64,000 nt of DNA from Roseibium litorale (lineage in GTDB: Bacteria > Pseudomonadota > Alphaproteobacteria > Rhizobiales > Stappiaceae), in contig NZ_JACYXI010000002.1 of NCBI RefSeq assembly GCF_014842915.1, positions 1-64,000 on the forward strand, in the 5' to 3' direction. Shown here in pieces: positions 57,908 to 64,000 of the stretch. Every line of letters begins with the position of its first letter. Position 1 is the stretch's first letter. Under the pieces are notes generated by a model that ran no database searches, was not told the DNA's origin, and saw only the letters and a list, made by a program, of their open reading frames with translations. The position numbers and the translations under genes are program-made.

Positions 57908-58144
57908 ATGGGCATCATTCTCTGGATCATCATCGGCCTGATTGCAGGTGCGGTTGCGCACCGGGTGCTGAACAGCCGGGGCGGGTTTCTGGGCAGCCTG
58001 ATTGTCGGTCTGGTCGGCGCATTGGTCGGCGGCGAGTTGGCGCATATGCTGCGGCTCAATGTCACCGGCGGTTTCCTCGACCAATTGGTTGTTGCCACGC
58101 TTGGTGCGATCCTGTTCCTCTTCATCTGGAGAAAGGTGTTCTGA
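57908..58144 (+). CDS. GlsB/YeaQ/YmgE-family stress membrane protein
   Basis: A 78-residue, almost entirely hydrophobic protein with three short transmembrane helices (MGIILWIIIGLIAGAVA; LIVGLVGALVGGEL; VVATLGAILFLFIW), the transglycosylase-associated (YeaQ/YmgE) family. Often stress-induced. Function not established. AAAGGAA lies 10 bases upstream of ATG 57908. A 47-codon upstream extension crosses the palindromic repeat and is rejected. Confidence 0.85.
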   Translation: MGIILWIIIGLIAGAVAHRVLNSRGGFLGSLIVGLVGALVGGELAHMLRLNVTGGFLDQLVVATLGAILFLFIWRKVF

Positions 58145-58201
58145 GAACACCTTGGATCAGCCAGTCCCAAATGGGTCCAGTGACGTCCGGAAGGCCGCGA
58201 T

Positions 58202-58639
58202 TTGAACAAACTTCCCGAAAGCCTTGAGGCCTATCCCTACAAGGCCGAAGACAAGATCCGCTATGGCGATTGCGACGCGATGGGCCATGTGAACAATGCC
58301 GTGTTCTCCACCTTCCTGGAAACCGGGCGCGTGGAAGTGCTCATGGGCGACCGGGAGGAGGTACTCTCCGAGGATTGCGGCTTTGTGATCGTCCGGCTGG
58401 AGCTGGATTATCTGGGCGAAATCCGCTGGCCGGGAATGGTGCAGATCGGCACCACCGTCCTGAGCGTCAACACAAGTTCGGTGGCTTTCGGCCAGATGGT
58501 CTTTCAGGACGGAAAGCCGGTGGCGCGGGCCAAGACCGTTATCGTCCAGATGAACAAGACGACGCGCAAATCCCAGCGCCTGTCCGATTTGGCCCGCGAG
58601 CGGTTTTCCGCGTGCCTGATTGACGGCGTGGACGCATAG
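58202..58639 (+). CDS. Acyl-CoA thioesterase (hotdog fold)
   Basis: A 145-residue 4HBT-type thioesterase. The conserved start of the hotdog helix reads RYGDCDAMGHVNNAVFSTFLE, with the catalytic Asp candidate in GDCD. It hydrolyses acyl-CoA or acyl-ACP. Substrate unclear. The start is TTG 58202 with AAGG seven bases upstream, and the family N-terminus is near, so TTG is likely. Upstream of lipA by 45 bases. Confidence 0.85.
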   Translation: MNKLPESLEAYPYKAEDKIRYGDCDAMGHVNNAVFSTFLETGRVEVLMGDREEVLSEDCGFVIVRLELDYLGEIRWPGMVQIGTTVLSVNTSSVAFGQMVFQDGKPVARAKTVIVQMNKTTRKSQRLSDLARERFSACLIDGVDA

Positions 58640-58684
58640 CAGGAATGCGAAAGAAGCCTTGACCTTTTTTCAGAAGAGCGACAT

Positions 58685-59668
58685 GTGAAGCCCATGGTTA
58701 CGATCGTCGACACGCTTTCGCGCGGCACAGATGCGCGCAATGAACGGCCCCGCCACCCGGAAAAGGCCCACCGGCCCGACAATCCGGTTCAGCGCAAGCC
58801 GCAGTGGATCCGCGTCAAGGCGCCGACATCGCCCGTCTACCGGGAAACCCATGACATTGTGAAGAAGAACGGCCTTGTGACCGTTTGCGAGGAGGCCGGC
58901 TGCCCGAACATCGGGGAATGCTGGTCGAAAAAGCACGCCAGCTTCATGATCCTTGGTGACACCTGCACCCGCGCCTGTGCCTTCTGCAACGTGCGCACCG
59001 GCATGCCGGGCGCAGTCGACGAGAGCGAGCCGGCCTCCATCGGCGAGGCTGTCGCCCGCATGGGGCTGGAGCACGTGGTGATCACCTCGGTTGACCGGGA
59101 TGATCTGGACGACGGCGGCGCGACCCATTTTGCCAATGTGATCAAGGCCATCCGCGAGCAGTCGCCTTCGACCACCGTCGAAGTGCTGACGCCGGATTTC
59201 CTGCGCAAGGACGGCGCCCTTGAAATCGTCATCGAAGCCAAGCCGGACGTCTTCAACCACAACATGGAAACCGTGCCCTCCAAGTACCTCAAGGTCCGCC
59301 CGGGCGCGCGCTACTTCCATTCCATCCGTCTGTTGCAGCGCGCGAAGGAGCTGGATCCTGGCATGTTCACCAAGTCCGGCATCATGGTCGGCCTCGGCGA
59401 AGAGCGCAACGAAGTGCTTCAGCTTATGGACGACCTGCGCGTCGCGGATGTGGATTTCCTGACCGTCGGCCAATATCTGCAGCCGTCGAAGAAGCACCAT
59501 CCGGTGATGTCCTTCGTGACGCCGGAAGAATTCAAGGCTTACGAAAAGATCGCTTACGCAAAGGGCTTCCTGAAGGTCTCCGCCAGCCCTCTGACCCGCT
59601 CGTCCCACCATGCCGGTGAAGACTTTGCCGAGCTGAAGGCAGCCCGTCAGGCCCGCCAGGGTTTCTAA
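58685..59668 (+). CDS. lipA: Lipoyl synthase
   Basis: A 327-residue radical SAM enzyme inserting sulfur into octanoyl groups to make lipoyl cofactors. The auxiliary cluster cysteines are in [13 protein letters not shown], the radical SAM cluster in [10 protein letters not shown] (CxxxCxxC). It ends in the conserved SSHHAGEDF region. It serves PdhB, PdhC and other 2-oxoacid complexes, explaining its place downstream of the pdh operon. The start is GTG 58685 or ATG 58694. Confidence 0.97.
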
Positions 59669-59686
59669 GGCGGATCGCGGTCAGTT

Positions 59687-60148
59687 ATGCCATCTTTCAG
59701 CAACATCCAGCGGGTCAATCATACGGCCCGCGACATGTTCACCCTTGTTGCGGACGTCGAGAAATACCCGCAATTCGTGCCCCTGTGCCAGGCGCTGCAT
59801 GTGCGCGGGCGCAAGGAGCTGGAGAACGGCAGCTCCGTTCTCGTGGCGGACATGACGGTTGCCTACAAGATGTTCAAGGAAACCTTCACCAGCCGCGTGG
59901 AGCTGGTTCCGGCCGAGAACAAGATCCTGGTCCAGTATCTCGACGGCCCGTTCCGTCATCTGGACAACCAGTGGACCTTTACCGATCAGGGTGAAGGCCA
60001 GTGCGACGTCGGTTTTTTCATTGATTATGAATTCAAGAGCCGCACACTCGGCACGCTGATGGGCGCGATGTTCGACAAGGCGTTCAGGAAGTTTTCCAAG
60101 GCCTTCGAGGAACGTGCCGATGCGGTCTATGGCACACGTCAGATCTGA
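59687..60148 (+). CDS. COQ10/RatA-type START-domain protein
   Basis: A 153-residue polyketide-cyclase/START-fold protein with FTLVADVEKYPQFVPLC near the N-terminus, the signature of COQ10-like ubiquinone-binding proteins, also annotated RatA. In alphaproteobacteria this gene regularly follows lipA. The probable role is ubiquinone handling in respiration. The toxin label from E. coli is unlikely to apply. It starts 18 bases after lipA. Confidence 0.9.
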   Translation: MPSFSNIQRVNHTARDMFTLVADVEKYPQFVPLCQALHVRGRKELENGSSVLVADMTVAYKMFKETFTSRVELVPAENKILVQYLDGPFRHLDNQWTFTDQGEGQCDVGFFIDYEFKSRTLGTLMGAMFDKAFRKFSKAFEERADAVYGTRQI

Positions 60149-60175
60149 TTTCTGATAGGTTCAGAAGCAAGCAGC

Positions 60176-60295
60176 CCATCCTTCGAGACGCAGCTTCGCT
60201 GCTCCTCAGGATGAGGGTCTCCGTATTGAAAGAAATCAAGAAAGTGCGCCACTCCCTCATCCTGAGGAGGGCTGAAAGCCCGTCTCGAAGGATGG
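60176..60295. repeat. Intergenic palindromic repeat (CATCCTTCGAGACG type)
   Basis: The arms CCATCCTTCGAGACG and CGTCTCGAAGGATGG, and inner CTCCTCAGGATGAGGG with CCCTCATCCTGAGGAG, form a long cruciform around about 37 bases. Small side hairpins (GCAGC/GCTGC and GGCTGAAAGCC) interrupt each arm. This sequence type is a widespread dispersed repeat in alphaproteobacteria. Confidence 0.8.
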
Positions 60296-60364
60296 ACTCC
60301 AGGCGGACTGTCCGCCGCGTCCTGCGGGCTGGCAGGAGGCCTGTGGCCGAGGAGTTTAACGAGG

Positions 60365-60856
60365 CTACTTGAACCCCTTGAAAGCCTCGCCGATGATCTT
60401 CAGGCGGTTGCCGCCAACGCCATCCTTTTCCTGACGCAGACGTGCCAGTTCGAGATCATTCAGCCCCAAATCCTCCAGGGTGACCTGTGTCTGGGGATTC
60501 TCGCACAGAACGCGGCGTTCATTCATGTCATTGGACTCAACGACCAGCTTTCGTCCCGCTTCCGCCTCGAACTGCGTCCAGATCACCGTGTCTTTCTGCA
60601 CCCAGAAAGAACGGTTGCAATAGGTCGCCTTGATGAAGCCCTTATGTGGCTGTGCCAGGATTTGATGGTAGGCGTGAAACTGCCCCGAGCGGCTCGTCGA
60701 GCGGATGTAAAAATCGTCAGGAGGACCGTTGCCGGGGTCAGCCATAGAAGCTTGGGGGGAAAGAAGCAGCCAAGGGAGAAGGGTAAATGCCGCAGCCAGC
60801 ATCAGCCAGACTTTGCCTGGAGCGGCAGTGTCTGATTCTGACCGGTTGCGCCACAT
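60365..60856 (-). CDS. Secreted paralogous protein 1 of three
   Basis: A 163-residue protein I do not recognise. A basic N-terminus and hydrophobic stretch (about 17-38) act as a signal peptide, followed by SMADPGN. The mature part shares with the next two genes the order FYIRSTSRSGQF, FIKATYCNRSFW, VLCEN and TQVTLEDLGL, including two conserved Cys. It is the most divergent copy: YWIRP is FWVQK and GRGWRPIC is MNERRVLC. ATG 60856 has AGGAG seven bases upstream and is preferred to ATG 60880. Confidence 0.75.
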   Translation of the reverse strand: MWRNRSESDTAAPGKVWLMLAAAFTLLPWLLLSPQASMADPGNGPPDDFYIRSTSRSGQFHAYHQILAQPHKGFIKATYCNRSFWVQKDTVIWTQFEAEAGRKLVVESNDMNERRVLCENPQTQVTLEDLGLNDLELARLRQEKDGVGGNRLKIIGEAFKGFK

Positions 60857-60959
60857 CCTTGCGCTCCTCATTTGCTTCATGCGGTCTGTGCCGGGCTTGA
60901 GCGGGCGCCGTCTTCGCGGCAGTCCTTTTGCTTATGCCCTTAAAACCTGTTCGCGCCTG

Positions 60960-61433
60960 TCAGTCATGATAGGTCGCTTTAGACCTCGACTTTCCATCGG
61001 GCGCCTCGAAGGCTTTCCGGATCGCGGTGAAACGGTGCTTCTGGGTGTCATCCAGATCCGAGCCGTTGCTGTAAAGAACGTAGCGGGCGTCCTTTTCGAT
61101 CCCCAGATCCCGGAGGGTGACTTGTTTCTCCGGTTCACTGCAAATTGGCCGCCAGCCGCGCCCGAAATTATATTCGACGCGGACAATGTTGTTGTTCTCG
61201 ACTTCAACTTCTGTCCAGGCAACTGTAACCGGTCTTATCCAATAACTGCGGCCACAATAGGACACCTGCCGCATTCCCTCGGCATGCTTGTCAAAAATTT
61301 TGTGGCTACCCAGGAACTGGCCGTTGTAGTCGCGGGAAATCAGGTAAAAGTCGCCATTTCCAACCTGCGGAGCTGCTTGCGCCGCCACGCCGTAAAGGCA
61401 AGTCCCTAAGGCGGCCCAGACAAGGGTTCGCAT
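60960..61433 (-). CDS. Secreted paralogous protein 2 of three
   Basis: A 157-residue protein with a signal peptide (residues 1 to about 20, cleavage after AQA). The mature domain reads FYLISRDYNGQFLGSHKIF, then VSYCGRSYWIRPVTVAWTE, then GRGWRPICSEPEKQVTLRDLGI. Two Cys flank the core and may form a disulfide in the periplasm. A basic low-complexity tail ends the protein. Very similar to the third copy. Function unknown. ATG 61433 is chosen for the signal peptide. A 22-codon upstream extension is rejected. Confidence 0.78.
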   Translation of the reverse strand: MRTLVWAALGTCLYGVAAQAAPQVGNGDFYLISRDYNGQFLGSHKIFDKHAEGMRQVSYCGRSYWIRPVTVAWTEVEVENNNIVRVEYNFGRGWRPICSEPEKQVTLRDLGIEKDARYVLYSNGSDLDDTQKHRFTAIRKAFEAPDGKSRSKATYHD

Positions 61434-61601
61434 GGATGCTCTATCCTTCGCAGTTGAGACACAGGCCCGACGAACGGTGTCCTGATTACTCTTATTCAAC
61501 CTTCACGATAGCACATGCGTTTCGCGGAATGATTTCGCGGAAACCTAAAGTTTTATGAATTGTGCAAAAATTACAAGGGGAAGACTAGCCAGGCAAGGAG
61601 G

Positions 61602-62078
61602 TCACTTGGCGTGATAGGAGCCCGTGGCTTTTTCATCCGCCTTGGGCGGGGCAAAGCTGCGTTTCATCGCGCCGAAAATAGTTTCGCCCTGAGTGGGCAC
61701 CCGGATGCCGCCGAAATAGATGACCTCTGAAGCATCCTGATTGATGCCAAAGTCCGCAAGAGTGACTTGTGTCTGCGGATTGGCACAAATCGGTCTCCAG
61801 CCCCGTCCGACGCTGTATTCAACCCGGACGATCCTCTTGTTCTCGACCTCTGTTTGTGCCCAAGCCACCGTGTAGGGCCTGATCCAGTATTCCTGCTGGC
61901 AGTAGGACACTTTCTTCAGGCCTTTGGAGGGACGCTTGAAGATCTTGTGGCTGCCAAGGAAGGTGCCTTGCCGGTCCCGGGAGATCATCGAGAACTCGTC
62001 CGCATCGAAGGCGTTCTGAGCAAAGGCCTCTGCGAAGAGAAGCACGCTGCAAACCGAAAACGCCAAGACTTGTCTCAT
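61602..62078 (-). CDS. Secreted paralogous protein 3 of three
   Basis: A 158-residue protein with a signal peptide ending near residue 20 (EAFAQ). The mature domain reads FSMISRDRQGTFLGSHKIF, VSYCQQEYWIRPYTVAWAQ and GRGWRPICANPQTQVTLADFGI, nearly matching copy 2. ATG 62078 has CAGGAAG five bases upstream, favoured over ATG 62105. The copies are tandem on the minus strand, 103 and 168 bases apart, in an interval between coq10 and cinA where other Rhizobiales have no such genes as far as I know. Confidence 0.78.
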   Translation of the reverse strand: MRQVLAFSVCSVLLFAEAFAQNAFDADEFSMISRDRQGTFLGSHKIFKRPSKGLKKVSYCQQEYWIRPYTVAWAQTEVENKRIVRVEYSVGRGWRPICANPQTQVTLADFGINQDASEVIYFGGIRVPTQGETIFGAMKRSFAPPKADEKATGSYHAK

Positions 62079-62175
62079 GGTCTTCCTGCATGATTTCAGA
62101 CGCATGCCGTCACGCAAGCGCGGAAGGTTAGGATCGCTCATTAAGCAGTCTACAAGTCAAATGTAAGCGAAACGT

Positions 62176-62673
62176 TCAGGAGTGTATCGAATTTGAAAGA
62201 AGTTCGAATGCTTGCGCGATCGTCGCCAGGCGGATCCCGTCACGGCCAGAAGCTGGAAAGAGCGCACGCATGTGCCGGGTGTCCCTGTTCTTGCGGGCAA
62301 GCGCCAGATGAACTGTTCCGACCGGTTTCTCATCCGTCCCTCCGCCAGGGCCGGCGATGCCGGTGACGGCCACCGCCAGATCGGCCGCTGAGCGCGCCAG
62401 AGCCCCCTCGGCCATTTCGATTGCGGTTTGCCTGCTGACCGCACCGAAACGTTTCAAGGTCTCTTCACGCACGCCAAGCATGTCCATCTTGGCTTTGTTT
62501 GAATAGGTAACGAAGCCCCGGTCGACAACATCGGACGAACCGGCCACTTCCGTAAGCGTGCCGATGATCAAGCCGCCGGTGCAAGATTCCGCCGTTGCGA
62601 TCATCAGGCCGCGCGCCCTTGCCGCATCGAGAATGCTGGCTGCTTCTGCTGTCAGCGATGTCCAGTCCGTCAT
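62176..62673 (-). CDS. pncC: CinA-family nicotinamide-nucleotide amidohydrolase
   Basis: A 165-residue stand-alone CinA C-terminal (PncC) domain. It deamidates nicotinamide mononucleotide to nicotinate mononucleotide in pyridine nucleotide recycling. The signature TAESCTGGLI is near residue 28, followed by SNKAKMDMLGV and GIAGPGGGTDEKPVG. It has no N-terminal MoCF domain. 16 bases after ispDF on the same strand, the usual alphaproteobacterial pairing. Confidence 0.95.
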   Translation of the reverse strand: MTDWTSLTAEAASILDAARARGLMIATAESCTGGLIIGTLTEVAGSSDVVDRGFVTYSNKAKMDMLGVREETLKRFGAVSRQTAIEMAEGALARSAADLAVAVTGIAGPGGGTDEKPVGTVHLALARKNRDTRHMRALFPASGRDGIRLATIAQAFELLSNSIHS

Positions 62674-62689
62674 GATTGCGTTTCCCGTG

Positions 62690-63937
62690 TCAGTCGCCGG
62701 TGAAGGGCAGGCGGACCGTGGCGCTTGCCATGGCTGCGATGCCCTCGCGCCGCCCGGTGAAGCCGAGGCGTTCCGACGTCGTTGCCTTGACGGAGACGCG
62801 CGTCACGGGCAGGGCGCAGATTTCTGCAATCTTCGCCCGGATCACGTCGCGGTGCGGGCCGATCTTCGGCGCCTCGCAAATGATGGTGACATCCAGATGG
62901 GCGATGCGTCCACCCAGTTCGTTCACCCTGCGGATGGCATCTTGAAGGAACTGGTCCGAGGCAGCGCCCTTCCATTTCGGATCAGACGGCGGGAAATGCG
63001 CGCCGATGTCCCCATCTGCGATCGCGCCGAGAATGGCATCGGTCAGGGCGTGAAGCGCCACATCCGCATCGGAATGGCCCTTGAGTTTCCGGTCATGGGG
63101 AATGGCAACGCCGCCCAGAATGACCGCATCGCCCGGCTCAAAAGCATGCACGTCATAGCCCGTGCCGTGACGGATGTCGCCAAGACTGGAAAGCGGGGGC
63201 AGGGCACTGGAAGTCATGGTGATCCTCTGTTCGGCACGGACAAGGTCCGCCTGTGTCGTAATCTTGAAATTGTCCGGATGACCTTCGGCGAGGCTGGTCG
63301 TCAGACCATCCCATTCGCCGACCGCCGTGTCATCCGTGAAATCATTGCGCCCGGCCGCCACTGCCCTCAGATGGGCGGCGTGAATTGCCGGAAAGGCAAA
63401 GCCCTGAGGCGTCTGGGCAGCCCAGAGATGGCTCCGGTCCACGGTTTCGAGCCGGCCGTCTTCGGGGCAAAGGCGCTTGAGCGTGTCGAACACGGGGACC
63501 GCGGCAAGGACTGCGGACTTGCCCTCGTCAAGCTGGCCGAGAACCCTAGTGATGACATCTGCCGGAATGAAGGGGCGGGCCGCATCGTGGATGAGAACCT
63601 GATCAGGCGCTGTTTCGGAATTGGATTCAGCAAGTGCCATCAATCCCTTGCGGACCGAGATCTGTCTCGTTTTGCCGCCGGTGACCGGAGGCAGGAGGCC
63701 GGTGCGCAAGCTCGCGGGAAGAGCAGAGATGGCTGTCTCATAGAGGTCCAGGTCGTCCTCGTGAATGACAACAAGCGTTTTGCTGATCCCCGGATGAGAC
63801 AAAAACGCCCCTAGCGTATGTGACAGGATAGGCATTCCGCCCAGAAGCCGGTATTGCTTCGGCCGGTCGCCGTCGCCGCCAGAAAGGCGCGAGCCGCGTC
63901 CTGCCGCAACGATGAGAGCTGCCGCTTGCTTGGTCAT
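62690..63937 (-). CDS. ispDF: Bifunctional IspD/IspF of the MEP isoprenoid pathway
   Basis: A 415-residue fusion. The N-terminal IspD cytidylyltransferase (about 1-235) starts with [19 protein letters not shown]. The C-terminal IspF cyclodiphosphate synthase (about 245-415) has [13 protein letters not shown], the metal-binding Asp-x-His, and [17 protein letters not shown]. It catalyses two non-consecutive steps to isopentenyl diphosphate. The fusion is typical of alphaproteobacteria. ATG 63937 has GGAG eight bases upstream. Confidence 0.97.
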
Positions 63938-64000
63938 TCCGGATCTCCACGTCACGTGTGCCGGGGTTGTTCTAAACGGGTTTCATCCGGCGCGGTACCG

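Follow-up and report, generated by a model that had tools for sequence, protein, structure and literature searches.

Three adjacent genes in the 64,000-nucleotide stretch of DNA analysed here (the window), which comes from a Roseibium-like alphaproteobacterium, encode members of an unnamed protein family which is confined, in the samples searched, to one alphaproteobacterial family, by inference the Stappiaceae since the named loci are mostly Roseibium and Labrenzia. With middling confidence, we read these proteins as a lineage-restricted, disulfide-locked domain of the cell envelope, probably non-catalytic and acting by binding or as an inhibitor, which has been split into differently regulated paralogues.

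The three genes lie on the minus strand. The gene adjoining coq10 (copy 1, slot 1, 60365..60856) encodes a protein of 163 residues, the middle gene (copy 2, slot 2, 60960..61433) one of 157 residues and the gene adjoining cinA (copy 3, slot 3, 61602..62078) one of 158 residues, each with an export-signal-like start. These lengths follow from the starts which best fit a signal peptide, and alternative starts are present upstream in all three copies (ATG at 60880 for copy 1, TTG at 61499 for copy 2, ATG at 62141 for copy 3). The initial annotation had described three adjacent homologous minus-strand genes of 157–163 residues sharing the same ordered motif blocks, with copies 2 and 3 the closest pair, and all of this was borne out. 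Open reading frames were found at these coordinates, the motif blocks are present in every copy, and in single BLASTP comparisons copies 2 and 3 share 45% identity (E 2e-52), versus 40% for copies 1 and 2 (E 5e-22) and 38% for copies 1 and 3 (E 6e-24). Copy 1 is a diverged paralogue without the WIRP and GRGWRP blocks, as had also been noted.

The family genes are co-directional with the upstream cinA-like gene, which has a PncC domain (62176..62673, minus strand; TIGR00199, 154.4 bits versus a cut-off of 68.9), and point towards a convergent coq10/RatA-family gene downstream (59687..60148, plus strand; NF007999, E 3.4e-23, 82.5 bits, below the curated cut-off of 258). In NCBIfam, the PncC/CinA C-terminal-type flank protein passes the subfamily-domain cut-off, and full-length CinA equivalogs score below cut-off on the same protein. 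The other flanks are an ispDF fusion and lipA. The proposed lipA-coq10-cinA-ispDF setting therefore stands for lipA, ispDF and the PncC/CinA-type gene, all above their NCBIfam cut-offs, but only at a score below its cut-off for the RatA/Coq10 protein.

Several other features were seen in and around the three genes. A 226-codon frame antisense to copies 1 and 2 (60729–61409, plus strand) looks like a mechanical open reading frame. Between copy 1 and coq10 lies a large imperfect inverted repeat (60173–60298) with 45-nt arms that are 80% complementary, containing CCTCATCCTGAGGAG. Across the genome this 15-mer was counted 12 times, with no match for the reversed control, and three close pairs on opposite strands are among these; the repeat is a REP-like interspersed element. 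An Rfam scan of 59600–62700 gave nothing at the gathering threshold, and tandem repeats were absent from 58000–64000. Scans of 60100–62300 gave one promoter-like site, on the opposite strand (0.7 in shuffles), and four terminator-like sites (2.4 in shuffles).

The initial annotation had recognised no named domain, and the library searches agree with this. Ninety family members searched against Pfam at E up to 1 gave a best E of 0.022 and nothing significant, the chance-level matches being spread among 33 unrelated families, none of them hit by more than three members. For the three window copies, neither Pfam-A nor NCBIfam gave a match above the curated cut-off, and PHROGs gave nothing beyond chance (best E 0.032). 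A search of PDB sequences returned nothing at E ≤ 10. AlphaFold2 modelled copy 2, from a 90-row alignment, with a mean pLDDT of 86.8 and a pTM of 0.71 (residues 31–120 at 95–98 per block), and mature copy 1, from an 86-row alignment, with a mean pLDDT of 81.1 and a pTM of 0.68 (residues 11–80 at a mean of 90–96 per block, the C-terminus below 50). The copy 2 model has strands at 28–34, 40–47, 55–59 and 62–66, a helix at 68–79 and strands at 83–89 and 94–98, followed by helices; strand order and main helix are alike in the two models. In the copy 2 model, Cys60 sits at the end of the third strand and Cys98 at the end of the sixth. Foldseek found no match to either model in the PDB at E ≤ 0.001 (best E 0.31 and 0.33). 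The best VIA-align results were Z 3.1 (59 residues, rmsd 3.8) and Z 4.8 (65 residues, rmsd 3.6), in a range (Z < 8) where, according to the tool's own warning, a match may reflect no more than a common arrangement; these results do not amount to proof of a new fold. Many of the structural matches listed are immunoglobulin-like chains or beta arrangements of other kinds, which were not read as kinship. Among the literature matches listed for Roseibium, Labrenzia and Stappiaceae (titles and starts of abstracts), nothing concerned these genes.

A match to the family at E ≤ 0.01 was detected in 86 of 87 genomes of the taxonomic family, covering all seven of its genera. Seven loci carry names, namely four Roseibium species, two Labrenzia records and one Alphaproteobacteria bacterium. 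Exactly three matches were found in 40 of 45 Roseibium genomes, the exceptions having two (G005, G014, G484), one (G487) or four (G023, with one match partial and on another contig). In one genome counted as having three (G010), slot 3 is a short remnant with an internal stop (L030:1028-1279). Two copies are present in genera g236 (5/5 genomes) and g237 (1/1), and a single copy in g26 (3/3) and g239 (14/14). Genus g235 (three genomes) includes two genomes with one copy and one with two. The 16 genomes of genus g238 comprise 14 with one copy, one with two overlapping matches that look like a single gene split over two frames (G470, L085:1429-1991) and one, G469, with none.

Outside the taxonomic family only weak partial matches were seen. 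None of 24 genomes from other families of the order had a match at E 0.1. Wider samples, which overlap with one another, were searched as well. The phylum sample (398 genomes, A1 query) yielded, besides the window's own genome, a second member of the family and three weak partial matches; the order sample (397 genomes, A2 query) yielded 20 genomes of the family and four such weak matches; and the class sample (385 genomes, A2 query) yielded the window's own genome only. Since no more than nine first-look candidates per genome went into the scoring of these searches, very distant relatives could be missed. The weak outside matches were attributed to chance, with E values of 0.002–0.009 (three genomes) and 0.003–0.07 (four genomes) over only 26–62 residues. 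Two of these seven genomes were checked (G524, G687), and their cinA and coq10 genes lie only 42 and 2 bp apart with nothing between. No plasmid relatives were found at E 0.01 for copy 2, the sole copy tried, and no viral-contig relatives for A1, a three-row alignment suited to close relatives only.

The family also has a fixed chromosomal place. In 65 of the 74 genomes read, cinA and coq10 directly flank the family genes; in eight of the other nine, one flank only falls within the stretch read, and in G502, the ninth, a long overlapping frame disturbed the sorting. Neither flank is seen at the second copy of G456 (L091), and no cinA was found within about 4 kb at L039, the R. limicola locus, whose sequence is that of G015. 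We compared this junction with that of 27 genomes lacking the family, 26 from other taxonomic families plus G469. The cinA gene was found in 25 of them, and the two without it are the least complete (84% and 88%). Coq10 was also visible at 16 of the 27 cinA loci, the other 11, two of which are extra copies in G055, being uninformative. At 13 of these 16 readable junctions, 50 bp or less separate the ORF ends, which agrees with the compact neighbourhood described in the initial annotation; minus G469, the junction is closed in 12 of 15 relatives outside the family. In G469 (L147:1483-2498), no copy was found at E 0.01 and the ORF ends of cinA and coq10 are 2 bp apart, which looks like a clean secondary loss. 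The simplest history is a single insertion of a new gene at the cinA-coq10 junction in the family ancestor, with later loss in G469.

The three open junctions outside the family measure 190, 648 and 1088 bp, the latter two with unrelated ORFs. One is a 319-residue protein with a signal-like N-terminus in another taxonomic family (L126:2007-2966); this ORF, in the 1088-bp gap, was considered and is not a relative of the family. The other, again in another taxonomic family, is a 203-residue protein (L143:874-1485), which looks GNAT-like. With unrelated ORFs at this place in two further families, the convergent junction seems to have taken up insertions more than once.

The multiplication of the gene appears to be old. 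The initial annotation had proposed a local duplication; as a recent event this is not supported, as copy 2 shares 86% identity with the gene at the same position in a related species versus 45% with copy 3, and most Roseibium genomes (40/45) hold exactly three copies. Each window copy is nearest to the gene in the same slot of G022 (copy 1 at 75%, copy 2 at 86% and copy 3 at 62% identity), and the three ORFs of G022 are the same as those at R. suaedae locus L033, hence the duplications predate the split of these species. In a maximum-likelihood tree of 146 rows, for which the program warned of long branches, copy 1 falls inside a clade of 37 slot 1 proteins (support 100/99), which adjoins the coq10-side copies of g236 and g237 (98/85), and copies 2 and 3 fall in a group of 66 rows (91/77, not starred). 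A triplication within Roseibium only was disfavoured by the tree, but is not rejected by the AU test (p 0.18). Slot 3 does not form one clade in the tree, yet a single origin for it is not rejected either (p 0.38).

In the consensus of the 37 slot 1 proteins, as in copy 1 itself, the VRP/IRP and GxGWRP blocks are missing; both are retained in slots 2 and 3 and partly (GxGW) in the single-copy genera. The loss of these blocks in copy 1 is therefore old and common to its orthologues, and copy 1, which has orthologues throughout the genus, is a long-established paralogue instead of a variant that is decaying or peculiar to the window. Purifying selection acts in all slots, with median pairwise dN/dS values of 0.27, 0.30 and 0.28 for slots 1–3 (72, 55 and 46 pairs; Nei-Gojobori, pairs with dS 0.15–1.5), although single pairs reach 0.73 and many pairs have high dS. 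Between the window and G022, dN/dS is 0.18, 0.08 and 0.13 for copies 1, 2 and 3 (dS 1.2–2.1), so that in this comparison copy 1 is under the weakest constraint. The suggestion that copy 1 is under different constraint thereby receives only mild support: its dN/dS exceeds that of the other two copies, but stays under the median for slot 1.

Slots 1 and 2 each have their own conserved upstream element in many species, although the counts are not independent events since related species inherit the elements together. Within 150 nt upstream of the gene, 18 of 37 slot 1 genes have a GTAA-N7-GTAA direct repeat (0 at 11 other spacings), which was found before only one of 34 slot 2 and none of 32 slot 3 genes. 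All five exact matches to GTAAGGCTCNNGTAAG in ten Roseibium genomes are upstream of slot 1. Ten further matches have one mismatch, three of them upstream of slot 1 and seven elsewhere. The signal lies in the position and not in the genome-wide number, as the reversed control gave 21 matches versus these 15 in the ten genomes. No GTAA-type direct repeat precedes copy 1 in the window genome. A spacing of 11 bp between direct repeats fits regulators of the OmpR family. The CenR motif is a TGA-N8-TGA direct repeat (PMC9275681), and it resembles the slot 1 repeat in having two half-sites 11 bp apart, start to start, and in lying upstream of a gene for an exported protein (predicted to be exported for slot 1). 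However, the slot 1 half-site is GTAA with N7, so that the likeness is one of spacing only, and a CenR site was considered for slot 1 but not confirmed. Passages of a second CenR paper mention no repeat like GTAA-N7-GTAA.

Many slot 2 genes are preceded by an inverted repeat instead. Of 34 slot 2 genes, 15 have a perfect stem scoring at least 15 no more than 50 nt before the start (that of L017 having another sequence), as do none of the 37 slot 1 or 32 slot 3 genes; 1.8% of mononucleotide shuffles reach this score. With at most one mismatch, the repeat is upstream of slot 2 in eight of ten genomes, including that of the window. In other species of Roseibium a similar repeat sits just before the Shine-Dalgarno sequence, and the window's repeat (61523..61539, minus strand, at most one mismatch to the pattern) is displaced to about 90 nt before copy 2. 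A pair test on 23 of the 34 rows, all from one clade and with starts hand-adjusted for six, found 81.5% of cells paired versus at most 53.1% when slid, with 6 of 500 shuffles reaching the value. Only three cells showed two-sided changes, which 36 of 500 shuffles reach, the covariation score was reached by 108 of 500 shuffles, and RNAalifold predicted no pairs. We rejected this as proof of an RNA hairpin, and a DNA operator explains the repeat equally well. Upstream of slot 3, a CTGG-TTCC block followed by TATAG at promoter-like distance was noticed by eye in one Roseibium group (e.g. L013, L046).

Conservation across the 146 homologues centres on a few residues. Cys60, Trp73 and Cys98 (copy 2 numbering) are invariant in all 146, which extends the two conserved cysteines first noted in the window to the whole family. 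Near-invariant positions are F40 (145/146), H44 (142/146), E87 (141/146), S33 (136/146) and F142 (139/145), with S33 replaced by Ala in nine rows and Thr in one, H44 by Gln in four, and E87 by Ile in four and Gln in one. An export heuristic combining hydrophobicity and cleavage site is passed by 143 of 146 homologues, and leans towards export because start codons were chosen upstream of the hydrophobic peak. The three failures are window copies 1 and 2 (1.56 and 1.68 versus a threshold of 1.8) and one other row. The export signal initially assigned to each copy is thus predicted by this measure for copy 3, with copies 1 and 2 just under the threshold; a hydrophobic core and S-M-A or A-Q-A are visible by eye in these two. 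A lipobox-like string occurs in just three of 146 homologues and in none of the window copies, which does not point to lipoproteins.

On the envelope-domain reading, the proteins would pass via the Sec system into the periplasm (or beyond) and lose their signal peptide, and the mature part would fold as one small domain of four strands, a helix, two strands and short helices, locked by a disulfide between Cys60 and Cys98, the predicted pair. The ligand of the domain, which would most likely have no catalysis of its own, would be a component of the cell envelope, a small molecule, or an enzyme which it inhibits or escorts. Copy 1, lacking the GxGWRP block, would have another binding partner or another mode of binding, and the separate upstream element that precedes slot 1 in many species would let it be made under different conditions. 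Against this reading stand the missing slot 1 element and the displaced slot 2 repeat in the window's own genome, together with the genome-wide number of matches to the slot 1 pattern, which is no higher than that of the reversed control. Export, fold and disulfide are thus predicted, and we infer a binding, non-catalytic envelope function divided among the paralogues.

Binding appears more likely than catalysis because only Cys-Trp-Cys is strictly invariant, with no other polar residue. This argument is a weak one, since in most members H44, E87 and S33 could together make an active site. A small enzyme, periplasmic or secreted, in which His44, Glu87 and Ser33 make up a catalytic or metal site and the disulfide is a mere stabiliser, would draw on the near-invariance of these residues and on their identity in all three window copies; we nevertheless regard it as unlikely, as each is substituted in some rows and the family has no relative in Pfam, NCBIfam or the PDB sequences. 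The constant cysteines could also carry electrons back and forth in an exported redox protein instead of forming a structural disulfide. However, they lie 38 residues apart with no CxxC motif as in thioredoxin-like proteins, and a thioredoxin-like fold is absent among the structural matches listed, which leaves little probability for this account.

A different role, as a secreted factor for contact with a eukaryotic host or a competitor (an adhesin, an inhibitor of host lysozyme or similar) diversified by duplication, would be in keeping with the predicted export signals, with the fast divergence of the three copies from the nearest genome, and with amplification in one genus of a gene that was not seen outside one family in the samples searched. 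Near-universal presence at one chromosomal place is more like a house-keeping envelope gene and there is no Pfam match, hence we judge host or competitor contact improbable, on a par with the enzyme. The genome without a match at E 0.01 (G469), the slot 3 remnant of G010 and the split gene of G470 might be taken to indicate chance ORFs or decaying copies with no functional family behind them, but purifying selection in all slots and residues invariant family-wide make this explanation scarcely credible. The binding or inhibitor domain of the envelope is the reading we retain. A bolder form of it, which we put forward tentatively and consider doubtful as a whole, is that of a new fold with a new envelope function: the domain would have been invented in the family ancestor, fixed near-universally at cinA/coq10, and later divided into separately controlled paralogues, one under a direct repeat of the response-regulator type and a second one downstream of a 5′ hairpin or an operator.

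Lineage-restricted exported protein families are a general concept in bacteria, and the genes described here are like them in their predicted export signal, conserved cysteines, restriction to one taxonomic family and lack of any characterised member found. They differ in being near-universal in their lineage, and in having one chromosomal place, ordered paralogues and slot-specific upstream elements. As the Pfam and NCBIfam libraries searched do not see it, the family deserves a name and an HMM. It looks like a gene born once at a defined place, near-universal in one family, and then multiplied to two or three copies. The closed junction in relatives, the loss in G469 and the existence of one-, two- and three-copy genera make both its origin and the division of labour among its paralogues directly testable.
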